Source of the DNA: Dyella sp. RRB7
Lineage (GTDB): Bacteria; Pseudomonadota; Gammaproteobacteria; Xanthomonadales; Rhodanobacteraceae
Length of the DNA stretch: 64,000 nt
Assembly: GCF_022761115.1 (NCBI RefSeq)
Contig: NZ_JAKWJS010000001.1
Location: 1,178,001-1,242,000, forward strand
Direction of reading: 5' to 3'
Below the pieces are notes generated by a model. It searched no databases. It saw only the letters and a program-made list of their open reading frames with translations, and was not told where the DNA came from. Position numbers and translations under genes: made by a program. Below, piece after piece: positions 2,816-57,969 of this stretch (positions are counted from its first letter, which is position 1; every line of letters begins with the position of its first letter).

Positions 2816-3738
2816 AGCTCCGCGTCGTTTTCGCGGGCACTCCCGAATTTTCCGTTCCCTGCCTTGAAGCGTGCCGCGCCAGCGGCGCCGAGGTGGTGGC
2901 TGTCTATACGCAACCCGATCGCCCCGCCGGGCGCGGCCGCAAGCTGACGCCCAGCCCGGTCAAGCAGGCGGCGCTGGCGGCAGGCATTGCGGTCGAACAG
3001 CCCGAGGCGCTGAAGTCGGCCGAGGTGCAGGCCACGCTGGCCGCCTACCGGCCCGACCTGATGGTGGTGGTGGCCTATGGCCTGATCCTGCCGCGCAAGG
3101 TGCTGGCCATGCCGCGCCTGGGCTGCTGGAACGTGCACGCCAGCCTGCTGCCGCGCTGGCGCGGCGCCGCGCCGATCCAGCGCGCGATTCTCGCGGGTGA
3201 CCACGAAAGCGGCGTCGACCTGATGCAGATGGAAGCGGGCCTGGATACCGGGCCGGTGCTGCTGGAACGACGCACGCCGATCGGCCGCGAGGACACCGGC
3301 GGTTCGCTGCATGACCGTCTGTCCGCGCTCGGCGCCGACGTGCTCGCCGAAGGCCTGGCGCGGGTGATGGCCGGCGACACGCTGGTGCCCCGTCCGCAGC
3401 CCGACCAGGGCGTCACCTATGCGCACAAGCTGGACAAGGCCGAGGCGCGGCTGGATTTCAACCGCCCCGCGATCGAGCTGGAACGCCAGGTGCGTGCGTT
3501 CGATCCGTGGCCGGTGGCCGAAGGCGAGATCGCCGGCGAGCCGCTGCGCATCTGGGCGGCGCAAGCCATCGAGCGCGACCACCATGCCGAACCAGGCAGC
3601 GTGCTCGGCGCCGGGCGCGACGGCATCGACATCGCCTGCGGCCAGGGCGCTTTGCGCGTGACCGCCTTGCAGCGCGCGGGCGGCAAGCGCATCGGCGCGG
3701 TCGACTACCTCAACGCACGCCCCGAACTGCGCCGCTGA
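2812..3738 (+). CDS. fmt: Methionyl-tRNA formyltransferase
   Basis: Formylates initiator Met-tRNA using 10-formyltetrahydrofolate. The 308-residue protein shows the N-terminal formyltransferase fold with the hallmark [13 protein letters not shown] (about 111-123), the catalytic Asn107/His109 (in CWNVHAS) and Asp145 (in GLDTGP), followed by the C-terminal OB-like tRNA-binding domain. The start is a TTG at 2812 whose last two bases belong to the def stop codon. The frame is also open upstream to 2692, but that part lies inside def. It is followed after 7 bases by rsmB on the same strand. Confidence 0.97.
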
Positions 3739-8879: not shown

Positions 8880-9814
8880 GCGCGCCGACCGTCCTTGCGG
8901 CGCTGGCGCCAGCCGCGGCGCAGGATGGCGACGGAACGCTCCACGCGCTTCATCCATCCGGCGCCACTGCGACGGATGGCGATCTTGGCGTAGCGGCGCG
9001 CCTCATCCCAGGACGGCTCCGGCTTGCTGCGGAACTCCAGCTTGGTCAGGTCGAGCGTGAAGATGTTCATGCGCATGCGCTCGGCGTAATAGTTGATGAG
9101 CGTGCGCGAGCGATAGCAATTGGTGAACTGGGTTTCCTTGTGCCGCGCATGCCACCAGCCGTTGGCGCCATGCACGCGGTAATGCACCATGCCCGTCGGC
9201 AGGAAGTATTTGCGCGCGCCGAGCACGCTGGTGCCGAACACCAGGCAGTTGTCGGCCGAAATGCGCCAGGTGTCCTGGAACGTCGAGGGCAGGTCCAGCG
9301 CCCGCTGCGCCCACGAACGGCGCATGGACAACGCGGACGTGGCGGCGCCGTACCAGTAGGCGGTTACCCAGGTACTGATGGCGGTATAACCCAGATCGGT
9401 GGGACGGTCCGCATAGCCGAGCACCCCTTGTTCGTTGCCGAACAGGTTGACGTCGGTGAACACGAAGTCGATGTCGCGGCGGTTGTCGTAGAGCTCGCCG
9501 ATACGCGCCAGGTAGTTCTTGTCCCAGTGATCATCGGCATCGAGGAAGCAGACGATATCGCCGGTGACGCCATCCAGCCCCTTCACGAAGGCGGAGAGCT
9601 GCCCGCCATTGCTCACGCAGCGCAACGTCACCCGCGGATCGTCGCCGTACTGCTCGACAAGCCACGCCGCGGAACCATCGGTGGAACCGTCATCCATCAC
9701 GATCAACTGCGCCGCGGCACGCGTCTGGGCCAGCACGCTCTCGATGGCCGTACCGACATAGTCGCGGTAGTTGTAGTTGGTGATGACGACGCTGAAGCTG
9801 ACGCTGTTGCTCAT
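8876..9814 (-). CDS. Glycosyltransferase family 2
   Basis: A 312-residue GT2 enzyme. It starts with [20 protein letters not shown], has MDDGSTDGS at the nucleotide-binding site and [10 protein letters not shown] as the DxD metal-binding motif. The C-terminus is rich in Arg and Lys, suggesting a peripheral contact with the inner membrane. Its ATG overlaps the stop of the upstream UDP-xylose synthase gene as ATGA. Being coupled to that gene, it is a reasonable candidate for a xylosyltransferase, but this is inference from position only. Confidence 0.88.
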
Positions 9815-51132: not shown

Positions 51133-51265
51133 TCGTCTTGGTTCTTTAGTTTGCTGGGGCTTTTTGCATTCACCCAACGTGATCGCCAGGGTGCCGCCAA
51201 CGCAAGGATGACGACCAGAGAACGGGCACCAGTCACCCCGACGACACCTTCCACCACCGACTTAC

Positions 51266-51300
51266 GGCACATTCGCCGGCCCCCATTTGCGTGCATAAAG
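51266..51300 (+). promoter_or_regulatory. Conserved block upstream of the first RND permease
   Basis: GGCACATTCGCC, ten bases, then TGCGTGCATAAAG. The same two blocks recur before the second permease. The position (82 bases before the GTG) suits a promoter with CATAAA as -10, or a regulator site. Confidence 0.5.
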
Positions 51301-51382: not shown

Positions 51383-54300
51383 GTGAACCTGTTCGCGCCA
51401 CTGATACGCCGTCCGATCGGCACCTCGCTGCTGGCGTTGGGCCTCGCCCTGGCCGGCCTGTGGGCCTACCTGCTGCTGGGGGTGGCGGCACTGCCCACGC
51501 TCGAATTCCCCGGCATGGTGGTGTACGTGGAAGTGCCCGGCGCCAATGCGCAGACCATGGCGTCGACCGTGGCCGCGCCACTGGAACGGCACCTGGGCCG
51601 CATTCCCGGCATCAAGGAGATGCATTCGGAAAGCAACGACGGCTCCACTTCGATCCAGTTGCTGTTCAACTTCGGCAATTCCACCGACAAGCTGTCCCGC
51701 GATGTGCAGGCGGCGATCAATGCCAGCATGGAAGACCTGCCGTCGAGCATGACGGTGCCGCCGCGCTACTTCAAATTCAATACGGCCAATATTCCGGTGC
51801 TGCTGCTCTCGCTCACCTCCGAGACGGTACCGCCGGACAGGCTCTACGACCTGGCCGATACGCTGATCAACCCCGCGCTGGCGCAGATTCCCGGCGTGGC
51901 CCAGGTGCGCGTGATCGGCGGACGGCCGCGCGCCGTGCGCGTGGAGCTCAACACCGCCGCGCTCGCCGCCAAGCAACTTACTTCCAACGATGTGGCCAAC
52001 GTCTTGCGCGCCGCCAACGTGACTTCGCCGCAGGGCACGCTCAGCGACGGCAGCTCGCAGATGACGGTGACCGCCAACGACTCGCTGCATGACCCGCAGG
52101 AGTTCGCCAACCTGTTGATCGCCATGCGCAATGGCGCGCCGGTACGGCTTTCCGATGTGGCCAGGGTCACCAGTGGCCAGCAGGACGAATTTCAGGCGGC
52201 CTGGTTCAACAACCATCGCTCGGTGGCCATCCGCATCAGCAAGCGTCCCGAGGCCAATGCGGTGGCGACCGCCGATGCGGTGCGCGCAAAGCTGCCGCAG
52301 ATGCGCGCCTGGCTGCCGGCCGACCTGCAGATCACGCCCATCTTCGACCTCACCCAGACCACCAAGTCGGCGCTGCATGAAGTGCAGGTGGCGCTGATGC
52401 TGAGCGTGGTGATGGTGGCGGTGGTGATGCTGGTGTTCCTGCGCCGCATAGGCCCCACCCTGATCGCCATGCTGAGCGTGCCGCTGTCGCTGGCCGGCGC
52501 GTTCGCCGTGATGTGGTCGCTGGGCTATACGCTCAACACCTTGTCGCTGATCGCGCTGGTGCTGTGCATCGGTTTCGTGGTGGACGACGCCATCGTGGTG
52601 ATCGAGAACATCGTGCGCCACATGGAGCACGGCGCGCCGCCGCTGGAGGCCTCGCTGGTGGGCGTCAACGAGATCGGCTTTACGGTGGTGTCGATCACGC
52701 TGTCGCTGATCGCGGTGTTCGCGCCGCTGCTGTTCGGCAACAATGAGTTCACCAATTTGCTGCGCGAGTTCTCGGTGACACTGGCCTCGGCGGTGGTGAT
52801 TTCAGCCATCGTTTCGCTCACGCTGACGCCCGCGCTATGCGGTCGCTACCTGACCCTGGCCAACGCGGGCGGGCGCGAGCCGAACCGGCTGGAGCGGGCG
52901 CTGGAACGCTTCGATCGATCCCTGCACCGCGTGTACGAACGCGCGCTGGACTGGGCCATGCATCATCGCCGCCTGATGCGCTGGCAGCCGCTGATCCTGC
53001 TTACGCTCACCTTCGGCATGGCCACGCTGGTGGTGAAGTTGTATGGGTTCAACTTCATGCCGCCGGAGGACATCGGCATGATCCAGGGCGATGTGCGCGC
53101 CGATGCCAACATCTCGCCCACGCTGATGGCCGAGCGCGCCAAGCGCGCCGGCGCTCTCATGCTGCAGGACCCGGCGGTGCTCGATGTCACCACCTTCCTC
53201 GGCAGCGACAACGCGGGCGGCGCGGTGGGCAACCAGGCCACCATGTTCGTGGATCTCAAGCCGCGCGGGCATGGCCCGGGCCAGCGGCCGGATGCCGTCA
53301 AGGACGTGATCGCGCGGCTGAACAAGGCGTACGAGAAACTGCCCGAGCTGCGCGTGTCGCTCAATTCCATCGGCTTCTTCAACGACAACAGCGACAGCAA
53401 TCGCGGCAGCCAGAGCTTCCAGCTGATCAGCAGCGACAATGTCGACCTGCAGCCGTGGGCGCTTAAAGTCACCCAGCTGCTGCGACAGCACAAGGAGTTC
53501 CGCGACGTCAGCAGCGACTACGACAGCGTCGACAAGCAGCAACTGCTGAAGGTGGACCGCGCGGCCGCCAGTCGCCTGCAGGTGAACATGGGCCTGATCG
53601 ATTCGGCGCTGTACAACGCATTCGGCCAGAACCAGGTGTCGATCATCTATTCGGACATCAACCAGTACTGGGTGGTGCTGACCTCGACCGCCGCGCTCAC
53701 GCTGAACTCGGCCACCCTGCTCAACACCTATGTGCGCAGCAACAGCGGCAGCATGGTGCCGTTGTCGGCGGTGGCGCATATCGAGCCGCAGGTGTCGCCC
53801 TCGCTGGTGATCCACACCAACCAGCTGGAAGCGACGCAGATCTACTACAACACCGAGCATGATTTCCCGCAGGACAAGGCCAATGCGCTGATCGCGCAGA
53901 TCGTCGCCGATGCACGGCTGCCGGCCGGCGTGCAGCTCGGTTATTCGGGCGCCGCCAAGAACCTGGAGGAAACCCGCTCCAACGCCAACGTGCTGCTGAT
54001 CGGCTCGATCCTGGCCATGTATATCGTGCTGGGCATCCTGTACGAGAGCCTGGGCCATCCGTTGACCATCCTCTCCACCCTGCCGGCGGCGGGTGCGGGC
54101 GCCTTCCTGGCCATGCTGGCCACCGGCATGTCGCTGTCGTTGATGGCGATCATCGCGATCCTGATGCTGATCGGCATCGTGAAGAAAAACGCGATCCTGA
54201 TGGTGGACTTCGCCCTGGTGGCCCAGCGCGAACGCGGCCTGTCGGCGCCCGACGCCATCCGCGAGGCCGCCCTGGTGCGCTTTCGCCCGATAACCATGAC

Positions 54301-54532
54301 CACCCTGGTGGCGATGGGCGCGGCGTTGCCGCTGGCGATCGGCTTTGGCGTCGGCTCGGAGATGCGCCAGCCGCTGGGCGTGGCCATCGTCGGCGGCCTG
54401 CTGGTCTCGCAGCTGCTGACGCTGCTGAGCACGCCGGCGATCTATCTGTGGAACTACGACCGCAAGCTGCGCAAGGCGGCGCGCCGGGAACGGCGGGCGG
54501 CCAAGCGGGCCTTGAAGGCGCAGACGGCCTAG
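51383..54532 (+). CDS. RND efflux permease, MdtB/MdtC type (first copy)
   Basis: A 1049-residue inner-membrane proton-driven efflux pump of the HAE1 class. It has twelve membrane helices and two large periplasmic loops. The proton-relay residues are present: Asp401-Asp402 in GFVVDDAIVV (helix 4) and Lys935 in KKNAILMVDFA (helix 10). The N-terminus MNLFAPLIRRPIGTSLLALG is of the MdtB/MdtC type, whose members work as heterotrimers. The start is a GTG at 51383 with weak upstream pairing. No adaptor gene is adjacent. Residues 881-1049 are identical at DNA level to the second copy. Confidence 0.93.
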   Translation: MNLFAPLIRRPIGTSLLALGLALAGLWAYLLLGVAALPTLEFPGMVVYVEVPGANAQTMASTVAAPLERHLGRIPGIKEMHSESNDGSTSIQLLFNFGNSTDKLSRDVQAAINASMEDLPSSMTVPPRYFKFNTANIPVLLLSLTSETVPPDRLYDLADTLINPALAQIPGVAQVRVIGGRPRAVRVELNTAALAAKQLTSNDVANVLRAANVTSPQGTLSDGSSQMTVTANDSLHDPQEFANLLIAMRNGAPVRLSDVARVTSGQQDEFQAAWFNNHRSVAIRISKRPEANAVATADAVRAKLPQMRAWLPADLQITPIFDLTQTTKSALHEVQVALMLSVVMVAVVMLVFLRRIGPTLIAMLSVPLSLAGAFAVMWSLGYTLNTLSLIALVLCIGFVVDDAIVVIENIVRHMEHGAPPLEASLVGVNEIGFTVVSITLSLIAVFAPLLFGNNEFTNLLREFSVTLASAVVISAIVSLTLTPALCGRYLTLANAGGREPNRLERALERFDRSLHRVYERALDWAMHHRRLMRWQPLILLTLTFGMATLVVKLYGFNFMPPEDIGMIQGDVRADANISPTLMAERAKRAGALMLQDPAVLDVTTFLGSDNAGGAVGNQATMFVDLKPRGHGPGQRPDAVKDVIARLNKAYEKLPELRVSLNSIGFFNDNSDSNRGSQSFQLISSDNVDLQPWALKVTQLLRQHKEFRDVSSDYDSVDKQQLLKVDRAAASRLQVNMGLIDSALYNAFGQNQVSIIYSDINQYWVVLTSTAALTLNSATLLNTYVRSNSGSMVPLSAVAHIEPQVSPSLVIHTNQLEATQIYYNTEHDFPQDKANALIAQIVADARLPAGVQLGYSGAAKNLEETRSNANVLLIGSILAMYIVLGILYESLGHPLTILSTLPAAGAGAFLAMLATGMSLSLMAIIAILMLIGIVKKNAILMVDFALVAQRERGLSAPDAIREAALVRFRPITMTTLVAMGAALPLAIGFGVGSEMRQPLGVAIVGGLLVSQLLTLLSTPAIYLWNYDRKLRKAARRERRAAKRALKAQTA

Positions 54533-54546
54533 ATCACGCCTTGCCG
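54023..54546 (+). repeat. 524-bp perfect direct repeat, copy 1
   Basis: Base-for-base identical to 57446-57969 (offset 3423). It covers the last 169 codons, the stop codon and 14 bases beyond it of the first permease gene. Sequence diverges immediately outside both ends. Confidence 0.97.
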
Positions 54547-54656
54547 TTCCCCTCCAGGGCACCCCAACGTAAGCGCTCCGTCAGCTTGTCGCGCACAGGG
54601 CGCGCTCCTGCCGGCGGGCTCTGGGAGCCCCTGTCTTTCGGCACGGACGGACTTCA

Positions 54657-54692
54657 GGCACATTCGCCTGTCACCTCACTGCGTGCATAAAG
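54657..54692 (+). promoter_or_regulatory. Conserved block upstream of the second RND permease
   Basis: GGCACATTCGCC, eleven bases, then TGCGTGCATAAAG, matching the block at 51266-51300 with one extra spacer base. It lies 113 bases before the GTG start. Surrounding sequence is not similar, so selection for function is plausible. Confidence 0.5.
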
Positions 54693-54805
54693 TGCCCATG
54701 ACTGCGCTCTTCGCCCGCCTTGCGCGTGAACGCGCGCCCCTGACGCCTCCCGGCCGCTACCATGGCGAGCGGCGTGCGCAGCCCTTTTTCGGTATGGAAA
54801 CCTGA

Positions 54806-57800
54806 GTGAACATTTTTGCTCCCCTGATCCGCCGTCCCGTGGGCACCTCGCTGCTGGCAGTGGGGTTGTTGCTGGCCGGCCTGTTTGCCTACCGCCTGTT
54901 GGGCGTGGCGGCGCTGCCGTCGCTGGAATTCCCCGGCGTATACGTCACCGCGTCGATGCCGGGTGCCAGCGCGCAGACCATGGCATCGACCGTGCTCGCC
55001 CCGCTGGAGCGCCACCTGGGCCGCATCCCCGGCATCGACGACATGTACGGCAATGCCAGCGAGGGTTCGGCGTCGGTCCAGATCCGCTTCACCTTCGATC
55101 GCACGGCGGACCAGGCCGCACGCGACGTGCAGGCCGCCATCAACGCGGCCCAGGCCGATTTGCCGGCGATGCCCAGCCCGCCGCAGTATTTCAAGTTCGA
55201 TACCTCGCAGATCCCGATCCTGCTGGTGTCGCTTACCTCCACCGGCTTGCCGCCGGACAAGCTGTACGACCTCACCGATACCCTGCTGAAGCCCGCGGTG
55301 TCGCAGATACCGGGCGTGGCCCAGGTACAGGTCTTCGGCGGTACGCCCCATGCGGTGCGCGTGGAGCTGGACGTCAACGCGCTGGCCGCCAAGGGCCTGA
55401 CCGCGAACGACGTCAGCAACGCGCTGATCGCCGCCAACGTCACCTCGCCGCAGGGCATCCTGAGCGACGGTCGTTCGCAGATGACGGTGACCGCCAACGA
55501 CGGCCTGCGCGACGCCGCCGATTTCGCCAAGCTGCTGGTCGCCGTGCGCAATGGCGCGCCGGTGCGCCTGTCGGACGTGGCCCGGGTCACCAGTGGCCAG
55601 CAGGACATCTACCAGGGTGCCTGGTTCAACGACCAGACCACGGTGGCGATGCAGATCAGCAAGCGCCCGGAAGCGAACGCCGTGGCCACCGTGGAAGAGA
55701 TCCGCCGGCGCCTGCCGGAGTTCCGCCAGTGGATGCCGGCGGACGTGCAGATCACGCCCATCTTCGACCTCACCCAGACCACCAAGTCGGCGCTGCACGA
55801 GGTACAGGTGGCGCTGCTGATCAGCATCGTGATGGTGGTGCTGGTGATGCTGGTGTTCCTGCGCAGGATGCGCCCCACCCTGATCGCCACGCTGAGCGTG
55901 CCGCTGTCGCTGGCCGGCGCCTTCGTGGCGATGCTGGCGCTGGGCTACACGCTCAACACGCTGTCGCTGGTGGCGCTGGTGCTGTGCATCGGCTTCGTGG
56001 TGGACGACGCCATCGTGGTGATCGAGAACATCGTGCGCCACATGGAGCATGGCGAGCCGCCGCTGCAGGCCGCGCTGATGGGCGTGCGCGAGATCGGCTT
56101 CACGGTGGTATCGATCACGCTGTCGCTGGTGGCGGTGTTCGCGCCGCTGCTGTTCGGCAACAACATGCTGATCATGCTGCTGCGCGAGTTCTCGGTGACG
56201 CTGGCGGTGGCGGTGGTGATCTCCGCCATCGTCTCGCTGACCCTCACCCCCGCGCTGTGCGGCAAGTTCCTCAAGCATGAGGCGCCGGGCGAGCACGTGC
56301 CCGGCCGCATGGAACTGGCGCTGGAGCGTTTCGACAAAGGCTTTCAACGCGCATACGAGCGTGCGCTGGACTGGGCCATGCGCCATCGCCGCCTGATGCG
56401 CTGGCAGCCGATCATCCTGCTGCTGCTGACGTTCGGGCTGGGCGCGGCAGTGGTGGCGACCGCCGGCGGCAACTTCATGCCCGAGGAGGATATCGGCATG
56501 ATCCAGGGCGACATCCGCGCCGATGCCAATATCTCGCCCACGCTGATGGCGGCGCGTGCGCAGCGCGCGGCGGCGATCATGAAGGCCGACCCCGCCGTGC
56601 TCGATGTGCTCACCACCCTGGGCAGCAACGACGGCAACGGCGCGGTGGGCAACGCGGGCAGCATGTTCGTCGACCTCAAGCCGTTGGGCAAAGGGCCCAA
56701 CGACCGCCACGACAGCGCCAAGGTGGTGATGGACCGCCTGGCCAAGCAGTACGACGTGCTGCCCGACATCAAGGTATCGCTGAGCCTGGTGCAGTTCCTC
56801 GGCGGCGGCGGCAGCGGCGACAAGGGTGGCCAGTACGAGTTCCAGCTGATCGGCACCAATGGCGAAGACCTGCAGCCGTGGACGCTCAAGATGGTGCAGC
56901 AGCTGCGCAAGATGAAGGAGCTGCGCGACGTCGGCAGCAATTTCGACCTGGTGGGCAAGCAGCAGTTGCTGAAGGTGGACCGCGAGGCCGCCAGCCGCAT
57001 GAAGGTGAGCATGGGCGATGTCGATACCGCGCTGTTCAACTCGTTCGGCCAGCGCCAGGTGTCGGTGATCTATTCGGACATCAACCAGTACTGGGTGGTG
57101 CTGACCTCCAGCGCCGCCACCTCGCTGAGTCCCGAGTCGCTGCTCAACGTGCGCGTGCGCAGCGCTGGCGGCGAGATGATTCCGCTGTCGGCGCTGGCGC
57201 ATCTGGAGCCGAACATGAGCCCGATGCGCATTCGCCACCACAACCAGCTCGAAGCCTCCACCATCAACTACAACCTGGCCACCGGCGTGACCCAGGATGT
57301 CGGCGTGAAGCTGGTGGAAAACGCCGCCATCGGCGTGGGCCTGCCGGCGGGCGTGCATGTGGAGTTCACCGGGCAGAACGAACGCCTGCAGCAAGCCAAG
57401 TCCAACGGCATGGTGCTGCTGATCGGCGCCGTCGTGGCCATGTACATCGTGCTGGGCATCCTGTACGAGAGCCTGGGCCATCCGTTGACCATCCTCTCCA
57501 CCCTGCCGGCGGCGGGTGCGGGCGCCTTCCTGGCCATGCTGGCCACCGGCATGTCGCTGTCGTTGATGGCGATCATCGCGATCCTGATGCTGATCGGCAT
57601 CGTGAAGAAAAACGCGATCCTGATGGTGGACTTCGCCCTGGTGGCCCAGCGCGAACGCGGCCTGTCGGCGCCCGACGCCATCCGCGAGGCCGCCCTGGTG
57701 CGCTTTCGCCCGATAACCATGACCACCCTGGTGGCGATGGGCGCGGCGTTGCCGCTGGCGATCGGCTTTGGCGTCGGCTCGGAGATGCGCCAGCCGCTGG

Positions 57801-57955
57801 GCGTGGCCATCGTCGGCGGCCTGCTGGTCTCGCAGCTGCTGACGCTGCTGAGCACGCCGGCGATCTATCTGTGGAACTACGACCGCAAGCTGCGCAAGGC
57901 GGCGCGCCGGGAACGGCGGGCGGCCAAGCGGGCCTTGAAGGCGCAGACGGCCTAG
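54806..57955 (+). CDS. RND efflux permease, MdtB/MdtC type (second copy)
   Basis: A 1049-residue RND permease, the same length as the gene before it, with Asp401-Asp402 and Lys935 of the proton relay conserved. The N-terminal half differs markedly, especially in the substrate-binding periplasmic loops (for example TASMPGASAQTMASTVLAP and YFKFDTSQIPILLVSLTS), while the last 169 residues are identical. It begins with GTG at 54806. With the first permease it probably forms a heteromeric pump, but the periplasmic adaptor and outer-membrane channel genes are not in the window. Confidence 0.93.
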   Translation: MNIFAPLIRRPVGTSLLAVGLLLAGLFAYRLLGVAALPSLEFPGVYVTASMPGASAQTMASTVLAPLERHLGRIPGIDDMYGNASEGSASVQIRFTFDRTADQAARDVQAAINAAQADLPAMPSPPQYFKFDTSQIPILLVSLTSTGLPPDKLYDLTDTLLKPAVSQIPGVAQVQVFGGTPHAVRVELDVNALAAKGLTANDVSNALIAANVTSPQGILSDGRSQMTVTANDGLRDAADFAKLLVAVRNGAPVRLSDVARVTSGQQDIYQGAWFNDQTTVAMQISKRPEANAVATVEEIRRRLPEFRQWMPADVQITPIFDLTQTTKSALHEVQVALLISIVMVVLVMLVFLRRMRPTLIATLSVPLSLAGAFVAMLALGYTLNTLSLVALVLCIGFVVDDAIVVIENIVRHMEHGEPPLQAALMGVREIGFTVVSITLSLVAVFAPLLFGNNMLIMLLREFSVTLAVAVVISAIVSLTLTPALCGKFLKHEAPGEHVPGRMELALERFDKGFQRAYERALDWAMRHRRLMRWQPIILLLLTFGLGAAVVATAGGNFMPEEDIGMIQGDIRADANISPTLMAARAQRAAAIMKADPAVLDVLTTLGSNDGNGAVGNAGSMFVDLKPLGKGPNDRHDSAKVVMDRLAKQYDVLPDIKVSLSLVQFLGGGGSGDKGGQYEFQLIGTNGEDLQPWTLKMVQQLRKMKELRDVGSNFDLVGKQQLLKVDREAASRMKVSMGDVDTALFNSFGQRQVSVIYSDINQYWVVLTSSAATSLSPESLLNVRVRSAGGEMIPLSALAHLEPNMSPMRIRHHNQLEASTINYNLATGVTQDVGVKLVENAAIGVGLPAGVHVEFTGQNERLQQAKSNGMVLLIGAVVAMYIVLGILYESLGHPLTILSTLPAAGAGAFLAMLATGMSLSLMAIIAILMLIGIVKKNAILMVDFALVAQRERGLSAPDAIREAALVRFRPITMTTLVAMGAALPLAIGFGVGSEMRQPLGVAIVGGLLVSQLLTLLSTPAIYLWNYDRKLRKAARRERRAAKRALKAQTA

Positions 57956-57969
57956 ATCACGCCTTGCCG
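57446..57969 (+). repeat. 524-bp perfect direct repeat, copy 2
   Basis: Identical to 54023-54546. It starts one base after the third position of the Tyr880 codon, where the copies differ (TAT in the first, TAC in the second), and ends 14 bases after the stop codon. Confidence 0.97.

Follow-up and report, generated by a model that had tools for sequence, protein, structure and literature searches.

Recurrent concerted evolution is described for 26 prokaryotic genes, tuf among them, in one study (PMC6053082). Among RND permeases, PMC12802153 reports activity for MdtB2C and none for MdtB homotrimers, and describes the requirement for two permeases as unclear. Here we analyse a window of 64,000 nucleotides from Dyella sp. 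RRB7 (contig NZ_JAKWJS010000001.1, positions 1,178,001 to 1,242,000), which carries two adjacent RND permease genes, A and B, with an identical tract at their 3' ends. An earlier reading, made from the letters of this DNA only, had attributed the tract to recent gene conversion between paralogues. Comparison with related genomes upholds that attribution and widens it: very probably, the permeases were duplicated before the Dyella species separated and have since undergone recurrent, module-limited gene conversion, with A copied onto B in this genome.

Results

The two copies of the tract match at 524 of 524 positions with no further matching base on either side, so that the reported identity at synonymous sites, at the stop codon and over 14 bases beyond it is exact. 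In both genes it opens in frame with codon 881, takes in the remaining coding sequence and the stop (510 nt) and continues for another 14 nt; within codons 902-1049, all 99 comparable fourfold-degenerate sites are identical. The flanks and the rest of the genes had been said to differ, which holds for codons 1-880 taken together (66.9% protein and 74.0% DNA identity, against 72.2% for the whole proteins with the tract counted in) and for two 30-codon windows over codons 812-871 just upstream (nucleotide identity 0.52 and 0.59), but not for codons 872-880 directly before the tract, where A and B are already similar. A second, smaller block of elevated similarity lies around codons 302-451. The genes are equal in length and their spacing stays nearly constant in register (3420-3423). 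The tract thus shows what is expected of interlocus conversion, identity at synonymous sites with sharp edges in otherwise diverged homologues. Neither chance nor amino-acid constraint can explain it: no exact run above 109 nt occurs in 506 cross-genome A-B pairs, and the one in the aligned coding sequence of this pair measures 507 nt. The homogenised part had been equated with helices 10-12 and the C-terminus; the C-terminus stands, while hydropathy, combined with the usual RND topology to position the transmembrane helices (TM), shows the tract beginning near the end of TM8 (peak at codon 877) and spanning TM9-TM12 plus a cationic tail.

A scan of genome contigs yielded 35 loci from Dyella, Rhodanobacter and metagenome-assembled genomes, and removal of duplicates left 23 Dyella-type genomes with A and B, including that of the window (W, with genes W_A and W_B). 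One of these, L037, has a second gene that is not a true B; it was kept in the 23-genome count of longest runs and excluded from the 22-pair counts and the 22-pair window trees. Rhodanobacter single copies were not used in pair tests. Because of a gap in its sequence, L022 was omitted from part of the comparisons of a pair with its own cross-genome pairs.

If the A/B split predates the species, an A gene should resemble the B of its own genome no more than the B of another. At third positions of codons 881-1049, within-genome identity is 0.742 against 0.644 after permutation (z 9.9, 22 pairs), and it is 0.701 against 0.639 in the 17 pairs left when W, L094, G018, L022 and L092 are removed. The excess is nil just before the tract (codons 841-880, 0.538 vs 0.538, 21 pairs) and amounts to 0.00-0.03 in 50-codon windows up to codon 850, apart from 0.04-0.05 in codons 351-450. 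Thus the comparison along both genes in relatives that had been suggested as a check places the strongest third-position excess in codons 881-1049. An edge scan of the 20 genomes that remain without W, L022 and L037 found no excess at codons 861-880, an excess at 881-910 (p 0.0014 to 0.0002), no significant excess at 911-930 (p 0.21 and 0.11), and an excess in 11 of the 12 windows from codon 931 to the end (p 0.004 or less), the other being 971-980 (p 0.051).

The same signal is seen pair by pair: 20 of the 22 pairs lie above their own cross-genome mean in codons 881-1049, and 10 lie above every one of their own cross comparisons, against 2 in codons 561-870. In five of the 23 genomes the longest within-genome exact run exceeds that of all 506 cross-genome pairs, always in the 3' block (W 507, L094 339, G018 123, L022 119 and L092 119 nt). 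There are, then, long recent tracts in two genomes, W and L094, and shorter outlier runs in three others.

Phylogenies reveal two histories within one gene. The tree of codons 1-869 sets A apart from B, and in that of codons 881-1030 the two genes of one genome group together in five cases, W, L094, L023, L022 and L039 (support in L039 only 0.15). Using iqtree2 on 22 pairs, the A/B split was rejected for codons 881-1049 (log-likelihood difference 190; approximately unbiased test, p-AU 0.0037), while for codons 541-870 it was the sister grouping of W_A and W_B that was rejected (p-AU 8e-5), the free tree and the A/B tree being equally good. This conflict supports the original proposal of conversion between paralogues. 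In sliding window trees the split was recovered in 22 of 34 windows (23 of 34 with W, L094 and L022 also dropped), so the whole gene is not homogenised in the manner of concerted evolution; it was lost within codons 331-600 (7 windows) and 871-1049 (5 windows). Every window that starts within codons 1-301 (11 of 11) or within 541-841 (11 of 11) recovers it. This contradicts the suggestion that conversion lets the substrate-binding loops diverge freely, as A and B keep their loop domains distinct.

Elsewhere in the gene, L094 has A and B third positions that are 100% identical in codons 351-400, and its two genes are sisters in windows 331-450 (support 0.91-0.997), marking a second conversion block around TM4.

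The direction of copying can be read from a five-codon motif. At codons 915-919, 21 of the 22 true B genes have QTQ[LVI]T, a motif absent from all 23 A genes. The remaining B gene, W_B, carries the GMSLS of A instead, and A is therefore the donor at least over these codons. With only 7 nucleotide sites in the block diagnostic for A versus B, direction is not readable along the whole tract, and the assignment of A to B rests on the motif sites. The motif, which we take to lie in the periplasmic TM9-TM10 loop on the basis of the usual RND topology, coincides with the lapse of within-genome excess at codons 911-930.

Several observations count against recurrent conversion or narrow its reach. Outside the block, much of the gene also shows a within-genome excess, of about 0.03 at most (0.04-0.05 in codons 351-450), which perhaps reflects shared codon usage in part, and two of the 22 pairs, L033 and L042, fall under their own cross mean in codons 881-1049. 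The outlier status of L022 is weakened by a 100-N gap and a 77-nt repeat in the tract region of its gene A (open reading frame, ORF, from 5925). Over the whole tract W is nearer to A-type than to B-type references in only 8 of 14 comparisons (0.850 vs 0.837). Recurrence beyond W is borderline when only the W pair is left free in the iqtree2 test of codons 881-1049 (log-likelihood difference 137, p-AU 0.059, Shimodaira-Hasegawa p-SH 0.027), and a quick-tree test of the split in the 3' block gave no rejection (p-AU 0.125), although that test leaves identical rows free and the iqtree run, which is fuller, did reject. Finally, a block-limited excess is absent from 13 Rhodanobacter-type pairs, in which a small excess extends across the gene (0.693 vs 0.677 in codons 881-1049; 0.657 vs 0.638 in 1-300), so recurrence is shown for Dyella only.

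Could the tract be a product of assembly, a short-read assembler having collapsed two similar 3' ends into one consensus? The window's genome is in 19 contigs, the gap and repeat in L022 are as expected for an assembler breaking on a shared repeat, which is probably what happened there, and two of four one-contig genomes (G006/L024 and G019) show little elevation. However, the window is free of N and both copies stand with distinct flanks inside one 1.4-Mb contig; another assembly (L094) has a 339-nt tract; and the one-contig genomes L089 and L097 are elevated at codons 1001-1049 by 13 and 21 points, L089 also exceeding all of its own cross pairs over 881-1049, which L097 does not. Assemblers are not known to collapse copies with differences at 10-20% of their sites. 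The near-identity must therefore be real and an artefact is very unlikely, though whether identity is 100% or about 99% rests on one 19-contig assembly. Transfer of the B tract from another strain's gene, in place of the neighbouring A, is a rival that one genome cannot separate from internal conversion, given a near-identical relative as donor strain. Perfect identity to the adjacent A nevertheless makes the neighbour the simplest donor, and the pattern recurs within genomes; we consider such a transfer very improbable.

That A and B are adjacent and in the same direction might suggest a recent tandem duplication that copied either just the 3' end or the entire gene, the remainder then diverging fast. 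Yet in the tree of codons 1-869 that remainder shows an A/B split that predates the species, and equal gene lengths with a nearly unchanged register imply that nothing was added, which leaves this account extremely unlikely. Purifying selection or codon constraint holding both 3' ends alike would fit a block that is among the best conserved parts of the protein, with cross-genome A-B nucleotide identity up to 0.90. It fails on the sites that should be free to vary: the excess sits at third positions and within genomes only, cross-genome synonymous identity in the block is not raised, its fourfold identity (0.58-0.63) falls inside the 0.49-0.74 range found elsewhere, and W is identical at every fourfold site compared. 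We give constraint a close to negligible chance.

The tract had also been called a hotspot for deletion or fusion. No deletion or fusion was seen, the tract region being present in two copies in 19 of 20 genomes of the genus; in the twentieth, G004, an assembly of 220 contigs and 86% completeness, neither gene has a close copy, and no permease segment exceeds 46% identity to B. Four Rhodanobacter-type loci (L032, L040, L044, L047) have one such permease in the fetched stretch; as fusions of an A start to a B end they were rejected, all four being B-like in the tree of codons 1-869.

The gene pair and its surroundings

Both permeases (Table 1) are covered over their full length by the Pfam ACR_tran model, far above the gathering score (cut-off 28), which places them in the HAE-type (AcrB/AcrD/AcrF) family. 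The strings DDAIVV (from codon 401 of A) and KKNAI (from codon 934) are present in both, and correspond to the Asp pair in TM4 and the Lys in TM10 of the proton relay. Neither protein reaches the curated cut-off of any NCBIfam model listed, MdtB and MdtC included: the best model, RND_permease_2, gives 988 and 1007 bits against a cut-off of 1250, and MdtB and MdtC follow, with best scores of 940 against 1584 (MdtB) and 971.7 against 1774 (MdtC). The solved structure that scores best for A by sequence is MdtB (9lyq).

Table 1. Features of the A/B locus, in positions of the window
Feature	Position	Strand	Remarks
Conserved bipartite upstream motif before A	51261..51300	+	
Gene A, RND permease, 1049 aa, GTG start (predicted)	51383..54532	+	Pfam ACR_tran 887.7 bits
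Identical tract, gene A copy (donor side)	54023..54546	+	codon 881 to stop + 14 nt
A codons 915-919, GMSLS	54125..54139	+	motif separating A from B genes
Conserved bipartite upstream motif before B	54652..54692	+	
Gene B, RND permease paralogue, 1049 aa, GTG start (predicted)	54806..57955	+	Pfam ACR_tran 915.6 bits
Identical tract, gene B copy	57446..57969	+	recipient side, at least over the loop motif
B codons 915-919	57548..57562	+	A-type GMSLS

Among the window neighbours scanned, a GntR/UTRA regulator lies upstream of the pair, and a DUF3617-like protein (below cut-off), a phosphoesterase and a multicopper oxidase lie downstream. No adaptor (membrane fusion) gene was recognised among these 4 neighbours or in 9 ORFs beside the pairs of L024 and L051, each set being part of the neighbouring ORFs; a TonB-dependent receptor is upstream of the pair in both of those genomes. 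Together with the scores below the NCBIfam cut-offs, this suggests that A and B are perhaps orphan permeases conserved as a pair. A bipartite motif, CTTNNGGCACATTCG..GCATAAAG, starts about 120-160 nt upstream of A and of B. The pattern GGCACATTCGN{12,22}GCATAAAG has exactly two copies in the 4.08-Mb genome, both of them before A/B, and a looser version precedes 43 of 77 related genes. By eye, its halves resemble an imperfect inverted repeat, and it is possibly an operator or promoter. The genome holds two other tandem RND pairs with 68-79% identity in alignable segments, apart from overlapping genomic sequence; these are probably too diverged for exchange.

A motif beside the right edge of the tract, which we take to be REP-like (repetitive extragenic palindromic), occurs in W as one reverse-strand copy after A. 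It was rejected as a general cause of that edge, being found after both genes only in G018, L024, L092 and L094 of the 23 genomes.

The arrangement of the pair varies among relatives. In the one-contig genome G019, A and B are in opposite directions and about 20 kb apart (L105 4616 (-), L106 9884 (+)), as after an inversion with one end between them. Three of the 13 Rhodanobacter-type pairs (L035, L043 and L046) have the reverse order, with the B-like permease first. In L024 (Dyella jiangningensis), A and B are separated by 1.3 kb, within which lies an ORF of 188 aa at 9172-9738 with no Pfam match, and a third, cut-off permease of this type follows the pair in L028 (Dyella subtropica) from 12736, with 771 aa in the stretch and about 70% identity to A and B. 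The B genes of L025 (9658-13252) and L033 (9447-12999) encode 1175 and 1184 aa, and by eye have an extension of more than 120 aa with hydrophobic stretches instead of the cationic tail.

Discussion

We propose that A and B, duplicated before the Dyella species split, swap their 3' module by homologous recombination. Exact A-B runs of at least 25 nt (462 cross-genome pairs) cluster in codons 351-450 and 901-1000, where the A/B split is also lost, and recombination may be seeded in such helix blocks, in which purifying selection would preserve long exact matches. Exchange would then extend to the end of homology, at codon 881 on the left and beyond the stop on the right, with a non-reciprocal copy as the outcome, here of A onto B. 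Conversion of the TM9-TM10 loop would usually be removed by selection if that loop is paralogue-specific, W being the exception; alternatively, separate conversion events on each side could account for the lapse at the loop. A likely consequence of recurrent conversion would be a common, proton-driving membrane half that forms the trimer, with periplasmic halves that remain specialised.

A more tentative idea, which we hold as possible but doubtful, goes further: the TM8-TM12 half might be a shared cassette, copied again and again in Dyella from one specialised permease to the other, with selection repeatedly purging conversion of the short TM9-TM10 loop that distinguishes B from A. W would then be a natural loop swap, in which assembly or coupling of B had become A-like.

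The locus offers a comparative case in which two pumps keep their periplasmic domains apart and conversion acts mainly to homogenise the membrane half. Within the exchanged half, a single short loop stands out as the likely paralogue-specific element. There are practical consequences as well: in Dyella, phylogenies based on the 3' region of these RND genes will be misleading, and short-read assemblies of such pairs can break at the shared 3' end, as in L022.

Conversion between RND paralogues is unreported in the titles and abstract openings of the literature searched, a body from which subscription journals are largely absent; within it, the process is already known and the locus and the loop gap appear to be new. 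The words RND, transporter and efflux are absent from the main text of PMC6053082, and a term search of PMC7015380 gave no match for gene conversion or recombination. As in the MdtB/MdtC systems described in PMC12802153 and PMC7015380, two homologous RND permeases are encoded together here; unlike them, A and B score below the MdtB/MdtC cut-offs and have no adaptor recognised among the neighbours scanned. The pair resembles the prokaryotic concerted evolution reported in PMC6053082 in that paralogues within a genome are closer than orthologues, at synonymous sites too and across species. The unit there is the gene, whereas in A and B only the 3' module is homogenised and the remainder stays split. 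In meningococcal tpsA (PMC3848433), a 3' end is likewise replaced from a related downstream copy; there the donors are shorter cassettes and the event is rare, whereas A and B are two full-length genes and the exchanged part is the membrane domain.

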